From: Diabrotica undecimpunctata
Lineage: Eukaryota; Arthropoda; Insecta; Coleoptera; Chrysomelidae
Assembly (NCBI RefSeq): GCF_040954645.1
Contig: NC_092803.1
Location: 69,175,427 to 69,239,426, forward strand
DNA: 64,000 bases
Reading direction: 5' to 3'
In this document: positions 34,282-45,200 of the stretch, piece after piece
Layout: each line of letters starts with the position of its first letter
How positions within the stretch are numbered: the first letter of the stretch is position 1
The notes under the pieces: generated by a model
The model's input: only the letters and a program-made list of their open reading frames with translations
Told to the model about the DNA's origin: nothing
Database searches by the model: none
Translations under genes and position numbers: made by a program

Positions 34282-35152
34282 CTAAGTAGATGTCGTCTTA
34301 GATGTAGAGGGGGTTCTCTTGATATTACTTGTAAGCTGCTTACAGGAGTGGTTCTGAAAGCACCGACTGCTAATCTTAGAGCTGTTTTTTTTAATTGTGT
34401 TAAGGTTTTTTAGGAATGTTTTAATTGCTGTATCGTAGCATATTGCAACGTAGTCCAGTTTACTGCGAATAATTGATTTGTAGAGGCTAATCAGAATACT
34501 AGAATCAGCTCCCCATATATTACTGGATAGAATTTTCAGCAAGTTTACTCTATTTTGACAAGTTAGTTGTAAATTCGTAATGTGGGTTTTCCAGTTTAAT
34601 TTGTAATCAAACGTTAGGCCCAATATTTTGACCGTTAAATATTACCGAAACAGGAATGGTATTCTTACGTTTGCTGAATACTGTGTAATGTGTCTTATTA
34701 GTTGAAAAGAGGAAGCCTGTTTTGGAAGACAATTCTTCGATTTTGTATAGAAGTTTCTGTAGTATTTTAGCCCCAGATGTAATATTTTTGCATTTAATAT
34801 AGACAACTAAATCATCAGAGTACAAGTTTGCTTTTATAGGAGGCGTCATTGTATTTATTACGTCGTTAAATGCAATTAAAAATAAAGTTTTGCTTAAAAT
34901 AGAACCTTGTGGAACACCGTTGTCGAGTATTCTAGTGGTAGAGGTGTATCCATTTACTCTTACTTGTATTTCCCTTTTATTCAGAAAGGTTTTTATAAAC
35001 GCAAGCATATGTCCTTGAACTCCCCATTTATCAAGTTTATTTAATATGAGGTATCTCCATGTTGTGTCGAAAGCTTTATTCACATCAAAAAAGACTAGTA
35101 TAATTTTCTGATCTAGTAAGAATGCATCATAAATAGTTGATTCAAGTGCCAC
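34282..35152 (-). pseudogene. LINE reverse transcriptase
   Basis: 35152-34607 has FFDVNKAFDTTWRYL, DNGVPQGSILSKTLFLIAFN and YSDDLVVYIK, the palm motifs with catalytic Asp pairs. 34623-34282 overlaps in another frame and gives the thumb (MGLTFDYKLNWKTHI, then SKLDYVA). A frameshift therefore separates palm and thumb. Upstream palm sequence continues in broken form to about 35500. Confidence 0.85.
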
Positions 35153-36072
35153 TAAGTTGTCGTTAGCAGATCTTCCTTGTTAAAAACCACTTTGGACTGT
35201 GGTCAGGAGATTTTTATTTCCTAGATACCATGTAAGCCTGTAATTTAAAATCTTCTCGAGAAGTTTACACATGTTCAGGTGAGGGAAATAGGACGGTTAG
35301 ATGTGGGACAATCTTTTGGATTGTATTGTTTATAAATTGGGATTATAATAGCTTTGGTCCAATTATCAGGAAAGTAATGATTTAAAAAGATGTGATTAAA
35401 GATGTCTAAAAGCATCTTTTTGCCTTTTCGGGGAAGATTTTTTAAAAATATTGATGGAATATCATCAGGACCTGGGGATATGGTTTTTAAGTTTAAAAGA
35501 GAAAAATCTAATTCTTGGGTTTATTTATGAGAGGGATCTGGTTGCGAATTTTGATGTCTATAGATTCTGTGGTAATCTTGTGTGTAGAAAAGATCGGATC
35601 TAGTACAGAATCGCTAGAGTTTTTTTGAAATACGTCTACTAGAATTTCAGGAATTTCAGGAGATAATTTGGTTATTATATGAAAGTGCATTTATTGAGTA
35701 AGGTAAACTTGATCCTTTTATTTTCTTTATTTTGTTTCAAATTATATTTGCTGGGGTAGATGTTTTAATGTTACTAACATATTTAATCCAGATCTCCTTC
35801 TTACTCTTTTTTATTAAAAATCGTGTACTAGCTCTCAATCTCCTAAATGTTATTAGGTTTTCCTCTGTTTAGGCGTGCTTGCTAGCAGCCAAGGCCCGAG
35901 AGCTTTCTTGATTCCACTAAGGTACCGGTTGCCTTTTACACGGTTTAGTTTTTCCTACAAATGTAGATGCACAATTTAAGATAATGTTGTTAAAGTCCGT
36001 GACGGTTTTGTGAATGTCATTTGTTATCTCATAATTTTCCATCTCGTCTTCCAAGTATTTTTGAAAAAGGTC

Positions 36073-36474
36073 CTAGTTTGCTGATTTTATTTTCCATCTT
36101 TGATATGCATTCGGATTAAGAGGTTGGTTTGTCTCAATTGAGATAAGTAAGGGGAAGTGGTCACTGTCGTGCAGAGTTTTTGCTGTGTTCCATTGAAACA
36201 TGTGTGCTAGTGATGGGCTACACAGGGTCAGGTCAATTGCAGAGAACGACCCGTTATATGAATTGAGTCTTGTTGGCTTTCCAGTATTTAATAAGATTAA
36301 ATTTGATTTATTTGTGAGACTGTATAGAAGGTTGCCACATTTATCGATTTTTTGGCTACCCAATCCTGGGTGATGGCAGTTAAAATCGCCTAGAATTACT
36401 TTGGGAGGGGGTAATTTTTCTATGAGTACTGTTAGTTCATTTATGTCGTCTTGGTTAGGATGCGGTAAGTATAT
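36073..36474 (-). pseudogene. LINE endonuclease, C-terminal half
   Basis: The reading includes VILGDFNCHHPG near 36400, then SAIDLTLCSPSL and HDSDHFPLLISI, the GDFN and SDHxP motifs of the AP-endonuclease fold. The upstream half of the domain lies on the other side of the Gypsy insertion. Confidence 0.8.
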
Positions 36475-36878
36475 TGTTACGTAAAAATATGAGTCATAGT
36501 TTTAACCTGTAAACATGTTTTTATTTACATGTTTATGTTTTAGATTTTACGAGAGGCTTCTATTTACCTGAAGGGACCTTCCAGAAACGGTCGAGCCGAT
36601 GTAAAAAAATACCCGTTTGCCTTACCGTTATAATTTCGCCGCTAATCAAGAAGGCTGTCGATGGTTCTAGCGTGAAGGCAATGGCATATATTAACAGGAC
36701 ATTTTATTTGGAAGGGACAGTTAATTCTGAAGAGCCGCGGCCGCGATTTTAATTGTTACGCTCGCCTTTAAATAAATTATGTATTTTTAGTGATAAATAA
36801 ATTAATATAAGTTATCGTGCTTTTTTAATAAATTAAAATAAGAACCTTTTAATAAAGACATAAATAAATTTCACAACA
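36475..36878 (+). repeat. Gypsy 5' LTR
   Basis: 404 bp, TGTTAC...ACAACA. It holds AATAAA-type signals near its end. The ATAT before it matches the ATAT after the 3' LTR. Confidence 0.95.
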
Positions 36879-36880
36879 AA

Positions 36881-36898
36881 TGGTGTCAGAACAGTGGA
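36881..36898 (+). promoter_or_regulatory. Gypsy primer-binding site
   Basis: TGGTGTCAGAACAGTGGA begins two bases after the LTR. A leading TGG pairs with the CCA end of a host tRNA. The tRNA is not identified here. Confidence 0.75.
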
Positions 36899-36955
36899 AT
36901 ACTTAAGATAAATTGCGAAAAAAAATTACAAGTGAATATAAAATAATTTGTGAAA

Positions 36956-38260
36956 ATGGCTACGATTTATGAGCTGACAGTGACTAATTTAAGAAGACAT
37001 CTTGAAGACAGAGAATTAGCGTCTACCGGAAAAAAGGCTAAGTTAGTCCAACGACTAAAGAACGCTTTGCTAGAAGAAGGACTAGATCCAGAGACTTATA
37101 TATTTGAAGATGCTGTCCTCTCGTCGATTTCGAAAGTTTCTGGTGATGTAGCCAAAGTTTCTGGTGACATCGCATCATTAGAGAACAAAGTTTCCGGTGA
37201 TATCGCATCATTAGAGAACAAAGTTTCTGGCGATATTTCGAAAGTTTCCGGCGACATCGCTTCTTTAGAAAGCAAAGTTTCTAACCAGATTTCTTCTCTG
37301 GAAAGCAAAGTTTCTGCTAACATCTCTAAAGTCACTTCTGAGATGACTGCTCTTGACGATAGAGTGACTTCGTTAAAAAACCAAGTTGCTGCCGATATGT
37401 TGGCCTTCGAAGAAAAGATATGGAAGGAGATGGAAAAGAAGCTGGAGGAAACAGGGACAGCAGAGAGAAGAAACAATCCGATTACAGTGGAGATAAAAGA
37501 AGACGAGACGAAATGTAAGTTGGAGACACGGCCGAAATTTGAAGGAAGTGGAGGTTCTATTCATGTTAAAGTCCCAACTTTCGACGGAAAATCATCATGG
37601 AACAACTACATGAAACAGTTCGAATCAGCCGCAAGAGCGACTGGATGGTCTGAAAAAGAAAAGGCGGTAAACCTGACTATCGCTCTTCGAGGAGATGCCT
37701 TAGATGTGCTTCAGACCATAGCCGTAGAGGAGACCGATGATTTCGAACAACTGAAGAAGAGGTTAAATATGCGATATGGCCACGAACATTTGGAGCATGT
37801 ATATCAGTCGCAGCTTAAAAATCGTAGACAGAAGAAAGATGAGGCTCTTCAAGAATATGAGGTAGATATTGCCAGATTAGTACGATATGCTTATCCAACA
37901 GCTCCCGAAGACATGATGGAAAAATTGGCCGTTCAAACGTTTATTGATGGTCTTCGTGATCATGAAATGCAGAGAACACTACGATTAGCTCGTCACAAGA
38001 CGCTGGTTGATGTCTTATCCGCCGCCCTCGACTACAAGTCAGCTACGCAGGCCTCTGGCGGGTACAGTAAAGTTAGAACTGTAAAAGAGGAAGAAGATGA
38101 AGATAAACTTGACCAGCTTGTTAATATGATGAAAAGCATGGCATACAAGAAAACGAAGACCATCAGATGCTGGAATTGTGGCGAAATAGGACACGTGCAA
38201 AGCTCCTGTAAGCACCCTAGGTACGACGCAAATCAAGAAACTCACCATCAGGAAAACTAG
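36956..38260 (+). CDS. gag: Gypsy gag with SAP-like domain, coiled coil and zinc knuckle
   Basis: 434 residues from ATG 36956 to TAG 38258-38260; an upstream in-frame GTG at 36950 is not used. Residues about 4-45 form a SAP-like helix pair (LTVTNLRRHLEDRELASTGK), a DNA/RNA-binding fold. Residues about 55-125 are an 11-residue repeat (KVSGDIASLEN and variants) that predicts a long coiled coil. The middle contains a retrotransposon gag core (WNNYMKQFESAARATGW onward). Residues near 405-418 are a CCHC knuckle (CWNCGEIGHVQSSC). Gag would assemble the particle and bind element RNA. This frame is fully open. Confidence 0.9.
   Translation: MATIYELTVTNLRRHLEDRELASTGKKAKLVQRLKNALLEEGLDPETYIFEDAVLSSISKVSGDVAKVSGDIASLENKVSGDIASLENKVSGDISKVSGDIASLESKVSNQISSLESKVSANISKVTSEMTALDDRVTSLKNQVAADMLAFEEKIWKEMEKKLEETGTAERRNNPITVEIKEDETKCKLETRPKFEGSGGSIHVKVPTFDGKSSWNNYMKQFESAARATGWSEKEKAVNLTIALRGDALDVLQTIAVEETDDFEQLKKRLNMRYGHEHLEHVYQSQLKNRRQKKDEALQEYEVDIARLVRYAYPTAPEDMMEKLAVQTFIDGLRDHEMQRTLRLARHKTLVDVLSAALDYKSATQASGGYSKVRTVKEEEDEDKLDQLVNMMKSMAYKKTKTIRCWNCGEIGHVQSSCKHPRYDANQETHHQEN
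37122..37334 (+). repeat. Coding tandem repeat in gag
   Basis: Repeats of 33 bp and shorter units such as AAAGTTTCTGGTGA. They encode KVSGDIASLEN-type hendecads of the coiled coil. Confidence 0.85.
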
Positions 38261-38276
38261 AACGGGTCAGCCTTAG

Positions 38277-40283
38277 GGGGGCAGCTTCGACCCAGAACTT
38301 TTCCAAACTCTCATACTAATAGCTTCTTTGAAATGTCGTGAAGATAGTGTATATGTAGATGGAGACATAAATGGTAAAAAGCATACGTTGTTGGTGGATA
38401 CCGGAGCGACCAGAACCATTATACGCCCGACAGTTATAAACAGCCGAAAGAAACTGTTACCAACGAGGTTGCGACTTCGGACCGCTACAGGTGAAAATGC
38501 CAACATTCATGGAGAAATCCAGGTACAATTGGGAATTGGAGCAGAAAAGTTTGTCCATACTGTTATAGTTGCTGACATCGAAGAGGATGTTATATTAGGA
38601 ATGGACGTAATGAATATGCATGGATTCCAATTGGATTTTAAGAATAAGGTAATCAAAGTTGGCAACGAGGAAGTATTTCTCCATCCACATAATGACAACA
38701 CTGTGCAAGCAGCCATTAAAGAAGATACAGTCGTGCCTGCGAGAAGCGAAACGATCATAGTAGCGCGGCTACAGGGAATTGTGGACGAAGGGAGACCTGT
38801 TATGATGGAGCCTTGGAACCACGACGATGAGGTTGGCCGTGGAATCATAATTGGAAAGGAATTGGTGACTTTGGCTAAGGAAATTCCTGTGAGGCTTATC
38901 AATGTCAATGACTACCCAGTGACCATCAAGAAAGAGACAAAGGTAGGAACTTGTGTACCTGTGACATCCATAATCCGTCAGGCGACAACATCTGATAATG
39001 CCAACGACAAATTCGACCAAATGGTTGCAGTTGCAGGACAGTCTCTAAATCAGATGGAGAAAAGGAAATTAAGGGAATTTCTTCGGCAGTATCGTGATAT
39101 TTTCGTACCGAAAGGAGGAAAGACGGGAAGAACTACCGTTGTTAAGCATAAAATTGATACTGGTAATGCTAAGCCAATTCGTCAAACAGCTCGACGATTA
39201 CCACAGGCGAGAAGAGAGGAAGCTGAAACGATTGTTCAGGAAATGAAGAAAGACGGGGTGATAGAACCTTCTACGAGCCCATGGGTCTCTCCGGTGGTCC
39301 TGGTTAAGAAGAAAGACGGAACGACGAGGTTCTGTGTGGATTACCGTTTGCTGAACAACGTTACCAAGAAAGATAGTTTTCCTCTGCCTCGGATCGATGA
39401 CACATTGGACACATTGGCTGGAAGTAAATTGTTTTCTACTTTGGATTTGAAGTCTGGATACTGGCAGGTAGAAATGGACCCAGTAGATAAAGAAAAGACA
39501 GCCTTCACCACAGGATCTGGATTGTGGCAATTCAACGTTATGTCATTTGGACTCTGTAATGCTCCTGCGACATTTGAGAGGCTTATGGAAAATGTGTTGA
39601 GAGGGTTATCTTGGAAAACATGCCTGGTTTATTTAGATGACATAATCGTCTTGGGGGAGACATTCGAAGATCATTTGAGGAATTTAGAAAACGTTTTTAA
39701 TCGACTTAAAGCTGCCCAATTGATGCTAAACCCCAAGAAGTGCCAGCTATTTCAAGGTAGAGTCAATTATCTGGGTCATATAGTCAGTAAAGAAGGAGTG
39801 GCCGTGGATAAGGGAAAAATAGATTCCATTAAGGAATGGCCAAAACCAACTGACAAACATCAAGTGAGAAGTTTTCTTGGACTATGTACTTACTACCGGA
39901 GGTTTATTAAGAAGTTTGCAGATATCGCTAAGCCATTAACGCGACTTACGGAGGAAGCAAGAGATTACCGCTGGGATACAGACTGCCAAAATGCCTTTGA
40001 GACCTTGAAAAAGCATTTAGTAACAGCACCAATTTTAGGCTATCCACTGCCAGAAGGAGAGTTCATCTTAGATACAGATGCAAGTAATGTGGGAATTGGA
40101 GGAGTGCTGTCTCAGATTCAAGGAGGACAGGAACGAGTCCTCGGATATTTTAGTAAAGTTCTTTCAAAACTACTACTACTACTAAGGATTTCCACAGTTT
40201 TCACTGTCTTCCTTCACTCAACCGTTTTCTCCAATTTTCCCTGTCATTCCAGTCTCCATCTCGCAGGGTTCTTTTCTCCATAG
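38277..40283 (+). pseudogene. pol: Gypsy pol, 5' part: protease, reverse transcriptase, start of RNase H
   Basis: The frame is +1 relative to gag and opens after a TAG at 38274-38276. Motifs in order are the protease active site LLVDTGATRTII, reverse-transcriptase FCVDYRLLNN, FGLCNAPATFERLM and VYLDDIIVLG, the connection FLGLCTYYRRFI, and the first RNase H motif FILDTDASNVGIGGVLSQ. The catalytic residues look intact. The natural frame ends at 40160-40170, where a foreign LINE tail enters. The last 40 or so residues before the stop at 40281 come from that insert. How pol is expressed past gag is unclear (see findings). Confidence 0.9.
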
Positions 40284-40396
40284 CCTCGTCGATTTCATCT
40301 CTGAATGACCTTCGGGGTCTTCCTCTCTTTCTTCTTCCAATCGGGCTCCATTCTGTGATTTTGTTTATCCAGCGTCCAGCATTTATCTTTCAAAAC
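40160..40396 (-). mobile_element. RTE-type LINE tail inserted in Gypsy pol
   Basis: TCTTTCAAAAC occurs at 40160-40170 and 40386-40396 as an 11-bp target duplication. Between them, read on the minus strand, is RWINKITEWSPIGRRKRGRP followed by a basic tail and a run of AGT triplets, the C-terminal tail of an endonuclease-reverse transcriptase with a microsatellite 3' end. The net 226 bp shifts the pol frame and adds stops. It is the third layer of nesting. Confidence 0.85.
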
Positions 40397-42435
40397 CTGA
40401 GCGGAATTATTGTGTCACGAGAAGAGAACTTCTAGCAGTAGTTAAATCAGTAGAGCACTTCTATCAATACCTCTATGGCAGAAAGTTTCTAATCCGAACC
40501 GACCATGCCGCCCTTAAGTGGTTGATGCAGTTTAAGAATCCAGAGGGTCAGATAGCCAGGTGGATCGAACGACTCCAAGAATACGATTTTAAGATTGAGC
40601 ACTGGGCCGGAGTTAGCCACAGAAACGCTGATTCTCTTTCCAGAAGGCCATGCCCAGCAGAGTGTTCCCACTGCAACAAAACGGAATCCAAGGAAGCAGC
40701 AGTGCTAAGAACGACGATTGTCAACGACGACTGGACGCCTACTAAGATAAGGGAAGAACAAGAGAGAGATCCAGTTATACAGAAAATCCGAAAATGGAAA
40801 GAGGAAAGCCGTCGACCACCTTGGCACGAAATATCAAACCTATGCTCAGTAGTTAAGACGTATTGGGCCCAGTGGGACTCATTTATCATCGAAGATGGCT
40901 TGCTCAAACGAGTCCTGGAAAATGATGACGGTTCAGAGAAGAGAAGACAGTTGGTGATCCCAAAGAGCAGAATAGCCGAAGTACTTCGTCAGTTACACGA
41001 CAGTCCATCGGGAGGGCATTTTGGTGTAAGGAAAACCCTTCAGCGAATTCGGGAACGGTTTTATTGGATGAACAGTTCCGACGATGTAAAAGACTGGTGT
41101 AAGAAATGTACTATTTGTGCCACGAGTAACGGGCCTTACCGAAAAAGGAGAGCTCCTATGAGACAATATAATGTTGGAAGCCCGTTTGAAAGAATAGCTT
41201 TGGATATCGCTGGGCCATTTCCAGAAAGTGAAAATGGAGGCAAGTACATGCTGGTAGTAATGGATTACTTCACTAAGTGGGTCGAGATTTACGCACTTCC
41301 AGACCAGAAGGCCGCCACCGTTGCAGATAAGTTGATCCAAGAATATATCAGCCGATTTGGAGTGCCTTTGGAGATCCATAGTGACCAAGGCAGGAACTTC
41401 GAAAGCGATCTATTCCAAGGAATATGTGATAGACTAGGCATGAAGAAAACAAGAACTACGGCGTATCATCCGCAATCGGATGGTATGGTAGAACGAATGA
41501 ATAGGACAGTTGGCAAGTATTTGACAAAGATGGTGTCCGATCATCAGCGAGACTGGGACCAATACCTTCCGTTCTTCACAATGGTCTACAGATCTGCTGT
41601 TAACGAATCAACAGGCCAGACACCAGCCAAAGTCCTATTCGGACGCGAAATGCGACTACCTTGTGATCTAGAGTTTGGGTGTCGACCTGGAGAAGATGTA
41701 GCAGGTGAAGATTATGTGATCGAATTACGAAGAAGAATGGACGATGTACATGAGTTGGTCCGTTCCCACCTTCAGATCGCTAGCGACCGAATGAAGAAAC
41801 GGTACGATACACAAGCCGAAAAGGGTTGCTTTAAGAAGAACGACAAAATCTGGCTGTATAATCCCAAGAAGCGAAAAGGTTGTTCTCCCAAATTACAGCA
41901 GTTTTGGGAAGGTCCATACCTCATCATGGAGAAGATCAACGATGTCATCTACCGAATAAGCAAGATTCCGAGGGGAAAGCCGATGATAGTACACCATAAC
42001 CGGCTGGCGTCTTTCGAAGGTGACCACGACGTAGATGAAGAAGTGGAAGTAAACCAAGTCCAAGATGTGTCTGACCTCACGTTTGAGGAATTCATGGGTG
42101 CCTATGGAGGTACCGGTAAAGCGAGACATGGTGTTACCACTGAAGAAAAGCAAGATCTACTCGCGCTCCCCGATGACTACTCGCTGGCCCTTACCATCCC
42201 GGCCAGTATTAAAGACGCACCAGGGTTGGCATCCGTCTTTCGAAGGAAGTTTGGTCGAGTTGCAGAACTTCAATGCCAGGTGCCAGCTCCCGGTAAAACC
42301 TTGAAACTCCAAGATGCATCACGTTACCTTTTCTACCTGGTAACAAAAGACACTGCCCGTGACCAACTTACCTACCGAGATGTATGGGAAGCCTTACTTC
42401 AACTGAGAGAGCACGTACTAGAGTCCGACGTGTAA
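40396..42435 (+). pseudogene. pol: Gypsy pol, 3' part: RNase H, integrase, first part of macrodomain
   Basis: After the insertion the pol frame resumes with the rest of RNase H (CVTRRELLAVV, RTDHAALKWLM). It continues with the integrase HHCC zinc finger (HDSPSGGHFGVRKTLQRI, then CKKCTIC). The DDE core follows: LDIAGPFPES, IHSDQGRNFES and a Glu in YHPQSDGMVERMNRT. A GPY/F-like module comes next (WEGPYLIMEKINDVIY). From about 42166 the text is not retroviral: DYSLALTI, LASVFRRKFGRVAELQ, SRYLFYLVTK and LTYRDVWEALLQLREH align in order with TARG1/OARD1-type macrodomains. An in-frame TAA at 42433-42435 interrupts that domain. Confidence 0.88.
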
Positions 42436-42738
42436 AAGTTAGCCATGCCAAAGTTGGAGTGCCGCCAATTAGATTGGAGGGTTATCCGAAATATGGTGGA
42501 GGAGATCTTTAAAGACACCGAAGTCCAGGTGTTAGTCTGTTGCAATCCGCACAGTTACTGGTGCGGAGAGAAAACCGTCCCTTGTCATTTTTATACAACT
42601 GGAAGTTGTAAAAGAGGGTCCAGTTGCCGATACCAGCATACCGTTCCAGTTCTAGTCCCGACAAGGTTCCAGGAGGAACCATCTTTTGAGAGGGGGGCAA
42701 TGTTACGTAAAAATATGAGTCATAGTTTTAACCTGTAA
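42436..42738 (+). pseudogene. End of Gypsy macrodomain plus CCCH zinc finger
   Basis: In frame with the preceding pol, directly after the TAA. It opens with KLAMPKLEC and LDWRVIRNMVEEIF, the last strand and helix of a macrodomain, then QVLVC. At 42583-42639 is C-x7-C-x5-C-x3-H, a CCCH zinc finger of the RNA-binding type. The frame ends at 42738, 38 bp into the 3' LTR. The first ATG after the stop is at 42445. Compared with active TARG1-type domains, the loop after MPKLEC is about two residues short and lacks the usual GCGLD motif, so hydrolase activity is doubtful. Confidence 0.75.
42685..42700 (+). promoter_or_regulatory. Gypsy polypurine tract
   Basis: GAGAGGGGGGCAA abuts the 3' LTR, the standard position for plus-strand priming. 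Confidence 0.75.
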
Positions 42739-43104
42739 ACATGTTTTTATTCACATGTTTATGTTTTAGATTTTACGAGAGGCTTCTATTTACCTGAAGG
42801 GACCTTCCAGAAACGGTCGAGCCGATGTAAAAAAATACCCGTTTGCCTTACCGTTATAATTTCGCCGCTAATCGAGAAGGCTGTCGATGGTTCTAGCGTG
42901 AAGGCAATGGCATATATTAAGAGGACATTTTATTTGGAAGGGACAGTTAATTCTGAAGAGCCGCGGCCGCGATTTTAATTGTTACGCTCGCTTTTAAATA
43001 AATTATGTATTTTTAGTGATAAATAAATTAATATAAGTTATTGTGCTCTTTTAATAAATTAAAATAAGAACCTTTTAATAAAGACATAAATAAATTTCAC
43101 AACA
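42701..43104 (+). repeat. Gypsy 3' LTR
   Basis: 404 bp, with six visible substitutions against the 5' LTR. Followed by the ATAT target duplication. Confidence 0.95.
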
Positions 43105-43430
43105 ATATATTGCAAACATTGATGTTTTTACTGTAGGTAATTGAAACAACCACAGCTTCCAGGTTTGTAGTAAGTGGAATAATTTTTGCTTCAGTGTCAT
43201 TTCGAATGAAAGTAGCTACTCCACCACTAACATGCATTCCATTTGTGCTTGTAAGAAATGACACATAATTTCTAAGTGTTACAGGATTGTTTTTAAAGTG
43301 AGATTCTTCCAGACAAATTACAATGGGGGAGAAATTGTTTATAAGAAGTCTTAATTGCTCAAGGTGGGTGTAGAATCCGTTTAGGTTCCATTGAATTAAA
43401 AATGTATCAGATATTATTTATCCTGACTAA
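43105..43430 (-). pseudogene. LINE endonuclease, N-terminal half
   Basis: Minus-strand reading begins LIQWNLNGFYTHLEQL and continues PIVICLEESHF and VSGGVATFIRN. These are the Asn and Glu motifs of the endonuclease fold. It breaks at the 3' Gypsy LTR boundary. Confidence 0.75.
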
Positions 43431-43705
43431 TTATGTCGTTGTCAAATTCTTCTGTAGATGAATAATAATTTGTGGATAATTTTTTCTTAATAGTTGTAAT
43501 TGTTCTTTTTAAAGAGGGATTTTGAATACTTGAGTAAATAAAAGTAAGGATGTCAATAATTTCGGATATTTCATTGGTTTACACTTGTAATCTAAAAAGG
43601 TGTATTCTTTTGCTATAAGTTCAGGGTTTTTAGAGTTAGTGGCATTTTCTAAAAATAGGCATATTTCTGAATAACCTATAGGAAAGGGCGGATTTTTTTG
43701 TTCTA

Positions 43706-44620
43706 TTAAGTTTTTAATAGAGTCGAGGACAGCAAATGTGTTTTCTGTCCTCTTCTTTGGTTAAACCATAAAAAAGAGCCAGTCGACTTGGCTCTTTTTT
43801 TTGGTTTAGATGTTTTGGGAATAGAGAAGACGTCTTGTGATGTGGGAATATCAGAAACATTTGGAGAATTTGACAATTGTCTTTTGGCCTTATCTTTATT
43901 TAAAGGTGGGTTATCGTTGCTAGTTATAGATAGGGTAGAAGCTGGAGAGTTATAGGGAATGTTTACTTCAGAAAGAGTTTTATTGGTGGTTTCAGTTAGC
44001 TGTATATTGGTTTGGTTATTTGAATTAGGATTTTCAGGTACTTCTGTTCCCATTTGTTCACTGGGCGAATCAGTTTTATGAATGCAATCAACTTCTCGGT
44101 ATTCTGTTGTTCGACATTTAGAACAATTAAATTGATCTACAGAAAGGTATATTCGATATGTTGTGGAATCAAAAGAAATGTTGAAAGAGTCTATTATGGA
44201 TAAGTTTTCTAATGGATTGATGTAGATTTTCTGCCAAAAACTCAGAACATATTTTGTCTCAGACATACCCACTCGAAGAAATGTCATTTTTGATATGGCT
44301 ATAATTCCCGTTTTCTTGAGTTTGTCTTGTATAACTTCGTTTGGAATGGTTGGACAAACATTCGACATGACTAATCTTAATGCTGGAGCTATTAATCTGC
44401 GGACTTCTACTTGCACGTTGCTAATTTTAACGTGTTTATGTGAATCAATGAGTTGGTCTACTATTCTTTTAGAAGAAAAATAAATGCAAATGCGGTTGTT
44501 TGCAATTTTCGAGGGAAAAACTATGTTCTTTGGAAGGACAAGTGATCCAATGGCAACTATATAATCATGAATTTTAATTCCTTCTATGGCAGATAGTACA
44601 ATAGCTTGGTCTTTTGCCAT
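43706..44620 (-). CDS. LINE ORF1 (gag-like) protein
   Basis: A 304-residue open frame starting at ATG 44620. The N-terminal 170 residues are mixed alpha/beta in character (IHDYIVAIGSLVLPKNIVFP, FLRVGMSETKYVLSFWQKIY) as in nucleic-acid-binding ORF1 proteins. A FNCSKC pair with a further Cys suggests a partial zinc knuckle near residue 170. The C-terminal half is Ser/Asn/Thr-rich with a basic stretch (PKKRAKSTG). It lies upstream of the endonuclease of the same LINE. I infer RNA binding from position and composition only. Confidence 0.6.
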   Translation of the reverse strand: MAKDQAIVLSAIEGIKIHDYIVAIGSLVLPKNIVFPSKIANNRICIYFSSKRIVDQLIDSHKHVKISNVQVEVRRLIAPALRLVMSNVCPTIPNEVIQDKLKKTGIIAISKMTFLRVGMSETKYVLSFWQKIYINPLENLSIIDSFNISFDSTTYRIYLSVDQFNCSKCRTTEYREVDCIHKTDSPSEQMGTEVPENPNSNNQTNIQLTETTNKTLSEVNIPYNSPASTLSITSNDNPPLNKDKAKRQLSNSPNVSDIPTSQDVFSIPKTSKPKKRAKSTGSFLWFNQRRGQKTHLLSSTLLKT

Positions 44621-45200
44621 TTGAATTTAGTTAGTATGTTTGAGTACGTAGACGGTGTGGTGTTTTGTGAAGGATTATTTTCCTTTGGATTCATTTGTAG
44701 TTAATAATTTTTGTCTTTAAATTTATTTATCATAGTCAATTTTTTACCCGTGCCAATCCGGCTCTGTATTAATTATCAGCAGACTTTTAAATAAAAGTCG
44801 CTCTGGGAACCGGTCGGAGCGGCCTTTGTAATAATTTTGTTGACTTTCAGAATATGTTTTATTTTGTATTATTGAAAATATTAATTGTACCCACTGCAAT
44901 TTCAGGGCAATCGATGAAAAGCACTGTAGATTTTCTAGTAAACACTTTTAACTATTTTTGTTCACTTTAATCTATTAGATTTAAACGATATTATCGGAGC
45001 TAACCTAAATGTGGTTTGTTAAACCAAGGTCAGAGCCGAATCCCCATTGTATATTTTATTGTATATTTTTTTATGTTTTATTTTGCGGTGTTGACGATTT
45101 TTGTATTTTTAGTAAATTTTAAATGTTATTTTTTTTTACTTTTTGTAAGCTTTGTCCATAAAATTGTACAATTTTCAGTGACAATAAAGCATATTTCTAT

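Follow-up and report, generated by a model that had tools for sequence, protein, structure and literature searches.

Evidence for a TARG1-class macrodomain and a CCCH zinc finger at the pol C-terminus of Ty3/Gypsy retrotransposons in Diabrotica

Does the pol of a Ty3/Gypsy retrotransposon in the leaf beetle Diabrotica undecimpunctata end in a macrodomain, and if so, what might such a domain do behind an integrase? The question is raised by a 64,000-nucleotide stretch of contig NC_092803.1 (the window, whose first letter is position 1 in all coordinates below), in which a first-pass annotation had read a TARG1-like macrodomain and a CCCH zinc finger at the end of a Gypsy pol frame. The element occupies 36475-43104 and is a Ty3/Gypsy LTR retrotransposon with LTRs, gag and pol in the order protease, reverse transcriptase, RNase H and integrase all present. 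Its features are as follows.

36475..36878, plus strand: 5′ LTR (404 bp); ATAT stands on both outer sides of the LTR pair
36956..38260, plus strand: Gag with SAP domain, Retrotrans_gag and CCHC knuckle (open reading frame; Pfam PF02037, PF03732, PF00098)
38277..40151, plus strand: Pol part 1, protease, reverse transcriptase and start of RNase H (open reading frame, Pfam; colinear with residues 1-586 of P0008, a related pol described below)
40152..40377, plus strand: insert splitting RNase H in the window copy (approximate limits, from the alignment break between P0008 residues 586 and 587; a short repeat lies on both sides)
40378..42018, plus strand: Pol part 2, remaining RNase H, H2C2 zinc-binding domain, integrase core and GPY/F-type module, the last at 41911-42009 (PF17917, PF17921, PF00665, PF22938)
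42019..42135, plus strand: acidic linker from the GPY/F module to the macrodomain
42136..42432, plus strand: N-terminal part of the TARG1-class macrodomain, with the Lys84 equivalent
42433..42435, plus strand: in-frame stop codon (TAA) within the macrodomain of the window copy
42436..42540, plus strand: C-terminal part of the macrodomain, with the loop shortened at the position of TARG1 Asp125
42583..42639, plus strand: CCCH zinc finger, C-x7-C-x5-C-x3-H (Pfam PF00642)
42701..43104, plus strand: 3′ LTR (404 bp)

The two LTRs agree at 398 of 404 bases, with six differing positions. The window copy is broken twice, by the insert of about 226 bases in RNase H and by the stop codon in the macrodomain. 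The first-pass annotation had described a single uninterrupted frame after the integrase; it overlooked the TAA, and RNase H is also split by the insert. Its remark that the frame runs into the 3′ LTR is true of the frame after the stop. The start that it gave for the region, 42166, falls inside homologous sequence and is slightly too late, since TARG1-like sequence begins near 42136. Pfam scans of the element pieces and their relatives returned no chromodomain family (E up to 1; up to 0.1 for family B and the probable host gene L049, both introduced below); the chromodomain after the integrase that marks a chromovirus appears to be missing from the element and the relatives scanned. Three further observations concern other parts of the element and its flanks. 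The SAP domain at the Gag N-terminus scored 24.4 bits against a Pfam cut-off of 23.9 and is followed, by eye, by heptad-like repeats. The RNase H insert (about 40152-40377) has CTACTACTACTA at one of its ends and is flanked by a short repeat; by eye it looks SINE-like. Minus-strand frames at 34282-36501 and 43097-44626 resemble, again by eye, the endonuclease and reverse transcriptase of non-LTR retrotransposons; their presence on both flanks points to a LINE as the insertion site of the Gypsy element.

Next, we compared the pol tail with known macrodomains. The piece upstream of the stop (42145-42432) matched five PDB sequences of TARG1/C6orf130 at E=1.5e-11 to 2e-11, with the next match at E=0.99, and the piece 42436-42672 matched TARG1 weakly (15.7 bits, E=0.11), though in the expected order. 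The CCCH finger was recognized by PF00642 at 30.9 bits (cut-off 20.5; E=2.5e-7). A 419-residue open protein of Diabrotica virgifera (P0003), 88% identical to the window copy in its first part, aligned through residues 226-366 with residues 4-146 of human TARG1 at E=1.3e-22 over 141 residues, with integrase and CCCH matches alongside. P0008, a 1,339-residue pol from another assembly with the same tail, matched TARG1 at E=5e-21, and family B matched it at E=1.2e-29 without gaps across 136 residues. A five-sequence profile reached TARG1 at 2.7e-23 to 4e-23 (next match, 1.6). The PADLOC profile of DarG gave E=1.9e-10, with human TARG1 as a control at 3.7e-19; of the window pieces taken singly, one had no match and the other 0.06. 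The NCBIfam DarG model matched at E=1.4e-8, but at 34.4 bits, far under its own cut-off of 250 bits. Pfam Macro was silent on the window pieces and on P0003; since it gave human TARG1, as a control, just 27.2 bits (family B, 16.6 bits), we discounted this silence as a test. AlphaFold models were poor (pLDDT 36.5 for the whole of P0003 and 49 for the domain); their structural matches, headed by TARG1 and DarG, agree with TARG1 and are not relied on as proof. The structural match on which the annotation had also staked its claim was, with such models, a weak test. Together, these results, with whole-domain similarity to TARG1 in the open relatives, support the assignment of the pol C-terminus as a TARG1/OARD1-class macrodomain of the ALC1/TARG1/DarG class followed by a CCCH finger. 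The motif order and the finger position of the first-pass annotation thus stand, and its central claim was borne out by the open relative, the TARG1 and DarG profiles, and the further copies and lineages described below.

Protein searches, which required shared five-residue words and a length range and may have missed distant insect relatives, gave one match among 447 candidates, four among 17 and one among 575. The matches to D. virgifera proteins were 88-91% identical, and no relative was found at the search threshold among viral contigs or prokaryote genome contigs. Pieces of the transposon tail also occur in four D. virgifera gene models, P0004 and P0005 (OARD1-like), P0006 (tachykinin receptor 86C) and P0007 (uncharacterised). 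The first two bear the database name 'ADP-ribose glycohydrolase OARD1-like' and are, by sequence, fragments of the transposon family; these models combine host and transposon sequence through annotation or, possibly, exonisation.

We then searched the host assembly (1.74 Gb, 2,867 contigs) with the protein query 42019-42432. All of the best-ranked 150 of 5,203 candidate places matched the first part of the macrodomain region, and so the idea that no other copy of the family has the tail, which the annotation had named as a finding that would count against it, fell away. Among the matches listed, the window was 100% identical and the remainder 99%, and dozens had an open frame of 1,422 residues; as the best 150 ranked by likeness, these places are uninformative on older copies. 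Reading 48 loci across the macrodomain-CCCH stretch gave 47 copies of this family (family A), the window included, after L009 was dropped as a duplicate of L008. The frame is open through the CCCH finger in 44 of them, the exceptions being L001 (the window copy), L006 and L042.

A second genome search used human TARG1 as the query, and the best 150 of 4,786 candidates were scored. The top match, L049 (G000:C3:100934206-100934631 plus flanks), is 48% identical to TARG1 and lies in an open frame of 760 residues that matched no Pfam family at E up to 0.1; it is probably a host gene. Downstream of it, a second and more diverged macro-like stretch can be seen by eye. From the remaining 149 places 29 were fetched, and all but L098 were readable in register. 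These 28 make up a second Gypsy family (B) in the same genome that carries the same macrodomain-CCCH tail: many rows among the matches listed have frames of 1,413 or 1,414 residues, and copies read with their flanks show the order GPY/F module, linker, macrodomain and CCCH finger, as in family A and P0008. Between families A and B, identity is 67% in the integrase stretch compared (131/195), 42% in the macrodomain (57/135) and 41% in the CCCH stretch (14/34); the corresponding values for P0008 against P0003 are 84%, 66% and 59%. The tail has therefore been inherited in families A, B and P0008 and is not a one-off. A tree of seven tips placed the element domains in one group, separate from human TARG1 and L049 (SH-aLRT 97.1, UFBoot 98). 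With a single host gene in the tree, this result falls short of proof; a single capture of the macrodomain is nevertheless very likely. One locus, L056, has the family B tail after coiled-coil-like coding text (perhaps gag, by eye) with no integrase in frame, and represents either a rearrangement or a novel fusion.

What has become of the active site? The catalytic residues of TARG1 are described as Lys84 and Asp125 (PMC9411070, PMC5087735), and we counted their equivalents by alignment position, not by motif. L049 retains both. In family A the Lys84 equivalent is present in 47/47 copies, and the loop that should hold Asp125 is two residues shorter and without the Asp in all 47 (45 share one form of the loop, one differs at a residue and one has a stop), so that the retained Lys and the shortened Asp loop first read in the window copy hold throughout the family. 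Glu replaces G121 in family A, and P0003 and P0008 agree with its loop and Lys. Family B has Arg at position 84 in 28/28 copies and keeps Asp125 in all of them, as GHALD in 27 and GHAVD in one. As aligned, none of the 47 A copies, the 28 B copies or P0008 has a complete Lys84-Asp125 dyad, and the two families have broken it in opposite ways. The first loop is altered in both, G41 being replaced by Ala in family A and by Thr, Asn or Ala in family B, whereas TARG1 D20, L21, T83 and P118 are kept in all five aligned element sequences. The first-loop changes, together with Glu at G121 in family A, mean that ligand binding itself may have been lost. The zinc ligands of the finger are kept in 47, 46, 47 and 47 of the 47 family A copies, in P0008 and in 26/28 family B copies.

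Selection was assessed from variants among copies. For family B we used 27 copies (the 28 in register minus L054, which loses its frame behind the macrodomain; the A-B pairwise figures include it). The macrodomain had 36 synonymous and 40 nonsynonymous variants (pN/pS 0.31, P=8.8e-7), and variants present in at least two copies numbered 14 and 7, respectively (pN/pS 0.14, P=1.4e-5); these copies share ancestry, so the variants are not fully independent, and their ranking by TARG1 likeness may lower the nonsynonymous count, a weaker bias than that in family A. The family B CCCH stretch had five synonymous and 15 nonsynonymous variants (pN/pS 0.86). In family A, the N-terminal part of the macrodomain (one nonsynonymous against 19 synonymous) was set aside because ranking by likeness to the query strips nonsynonymous changes. 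Outside the ranking query, the C-terminal part of the family A macrodomain gave pN/pS 0.46 (P=0.14, not significant), the CCCH stretch 1.02 and the tail 0.94. Thus, of the properties expected of other family copies by the annotation, presence held throughout and an uninterrupted frame in 44 of 47, whereas purifying selection in family A did not reach significance. Pooled pairwise figures for family A (macrodomain C-terminal part 0.24, CCCH stretch 0.375, tail 1.04) were not used, as they cover fewer copies and recount shared changes; the integrase C-terminal part (0.11 from 7 of 8 loci, L004 dropped) was likewise left out. Between lineages, P0003 and P0008 agreed at 40/48 positions shared with TARG1 against 56/96 others (P=0.0019), and families A and B agreed at 31/63 positions common to TARG1 and L049 against 22/66 others (P=0.049).

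The sequence comparisons allow us to propose that the captured macrodomain acts as a non-hydrolytic binding module on the integrase or pol, a reading to which, taken whole, we give a probability of roughly 0.55. A Ty3/Gypsy clade, probably of leaf beetles, would have captured a cellular TARG1-type macrodomain and carried it with the CCCH finger as a C-terminal extension of pol directly behind the GPY/F module of the integrase. The domain would have been retained while the TARG1 hydrolase dyad broke in two ways in two families; its ligand may be ADP-ribose or a similar group, carried by a host factor or a nucleic acid, while the finger contacts RNA, and the two may jointly position the integration complex. 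We favour a binding module on the integrase because the tail sits directly behind GPY/F, at the site where chromoviruses carry their chromodomain. The parts of this proposal differ in strength. The residue losses make it probable that the element domains no longer perform TARG1-type hydrolysis, whereas the odds that they still bind a ligand look about even, and that they help to guide the integration complex is less likely than not. The opposite dyad losses fit selection for binding without turnover, or plain release from the need to hydrolyse. A bolder version, in which an eraser became a reader twice through opposite halves of the dyad and, placed on the integrase, directs insertion towards chromatin or nucleic acid that bears ADP-ribose, for example at sites of DNA damage, is rather unlikely; if true, it would describe a new kind of integration-targeting module comparable to the chromovirus chromodomain.

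Dyad loss is no proof of inactivity, since DarG, which has only the Lys, and SCO6735, which lacks both residues, are described as active (PMC9411070). The domain could then be a working ADP-ribose eraser, DarG-like or water-driven, that counters PARP-based repression or the ADP-ribosylation of DNA or RNA during retrotransposition, and the Lys kept in every family A copy read would suit it. Mobile elements are also described as tending upward in PARP-1-null Drosophila, where a second list has 9/10 elements of Gypsy type; that list failed the paper's own false-discovery threshold, and its authors allow an indirect cause (PMC7712786). Elements of this kind may thus encounter ADP-ribosylation, but repression by PARP-1 could run through transcription alone. 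The phosphate-loop residues that surround the Asp are moreover gone from family A, family B has Arg for Lys, and one would expect an eraser under selection to hold to a single mechanism in different families, all of which leaves this explanation unlikely. We consider equally unlikely that the macrodomain has ceased to bind ADP-ribose and serves as a scaffold for a working finger that binds element or host RNA. Such a scaffold would accommodate the loop changes in both families and the conservation of zinc ligands and spacing in A, P0008 and B amid surroundings in which A and B share only 41% identity, but family B shows constraint on the macrodomain and none on the CCCH stretch, and D20, L21, T83 and P118 persist in the five element sequences. 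That the tail is a transduced host fragment hitch-hiking without function is very improbable: the macrodomain does evolve faster than the integrase, and in family A variation beyond the ranking query does not depart significantly from neutrality, yet the frame has stayed open as A, P0008 and B diverged, shared variants in family B are depleted of nonsynonymous changes, and P0003 and P0008 preferentially keep the positions shared with TARG1. Finally, chance resemblance, for which the silence of Pfam Macro on the window pieces and P0003 and the weakness of the second window piece alone might speak, is refuted by the TARG1 matches of P0003 and family B, the profile matches and the other copies and families, with Pfam Macro scoring even human TARG1 and family B low and TARG1 and DarG topping the structural lists.

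A clade of DNA-integrating retroelements, abundant and young in its host, has thus kept a captured ADP-ribose-handling domain through the divergence of at least three lineages, and its tail links ADP-ribosylation, a signal of defence and repair, to an integrase. The probable host gene L049 with both catalytic residues, family A with Lys only and family B with Asp only also offer a natural series for a change from eraser to reader, measurable with small purified domains.

Among known systems, human TARG1/OARD1 (C6orf130), of the ALC1/TARG1/DarG class, is the closest in sequence, with 33-39% identity across the domain; D20, T83 and P118 are common to both, family A shares Lys84 and family B shares Asp125. 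Unlike TARG1, the element domain lies inside a retrotransposon pol, is followed by a CCCH finger, and has an incomplete dyad and changed loops. Coronaviruses and alphaviruses also make viral use of the fold; their macrodomains belong to another macrodomain subfamily, from RNA viruses, and stood low in the structural lists of our poor models. A precedent among LTR retroelements comes from fish epsilon-like endogenous retroviruses, described as carrying macro-domain ORFs (Basta et al. 2009, cited in PMC4977317); as far as that citing description goes, those are additional ORFs, whereas here the domain extends the C-terminus of a Gypsy pol in frame. We found no report of a Gypsy element with a macrodomain in the literature searched. 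The chromovirus chromodomain, described as a captured cellular reader at the integrase C-terminus (PMC3605345, PMC5348765, PMC5408687), is alike in position and in its origin by capture; the tail found here has a different fold, and its targeting role is putative.
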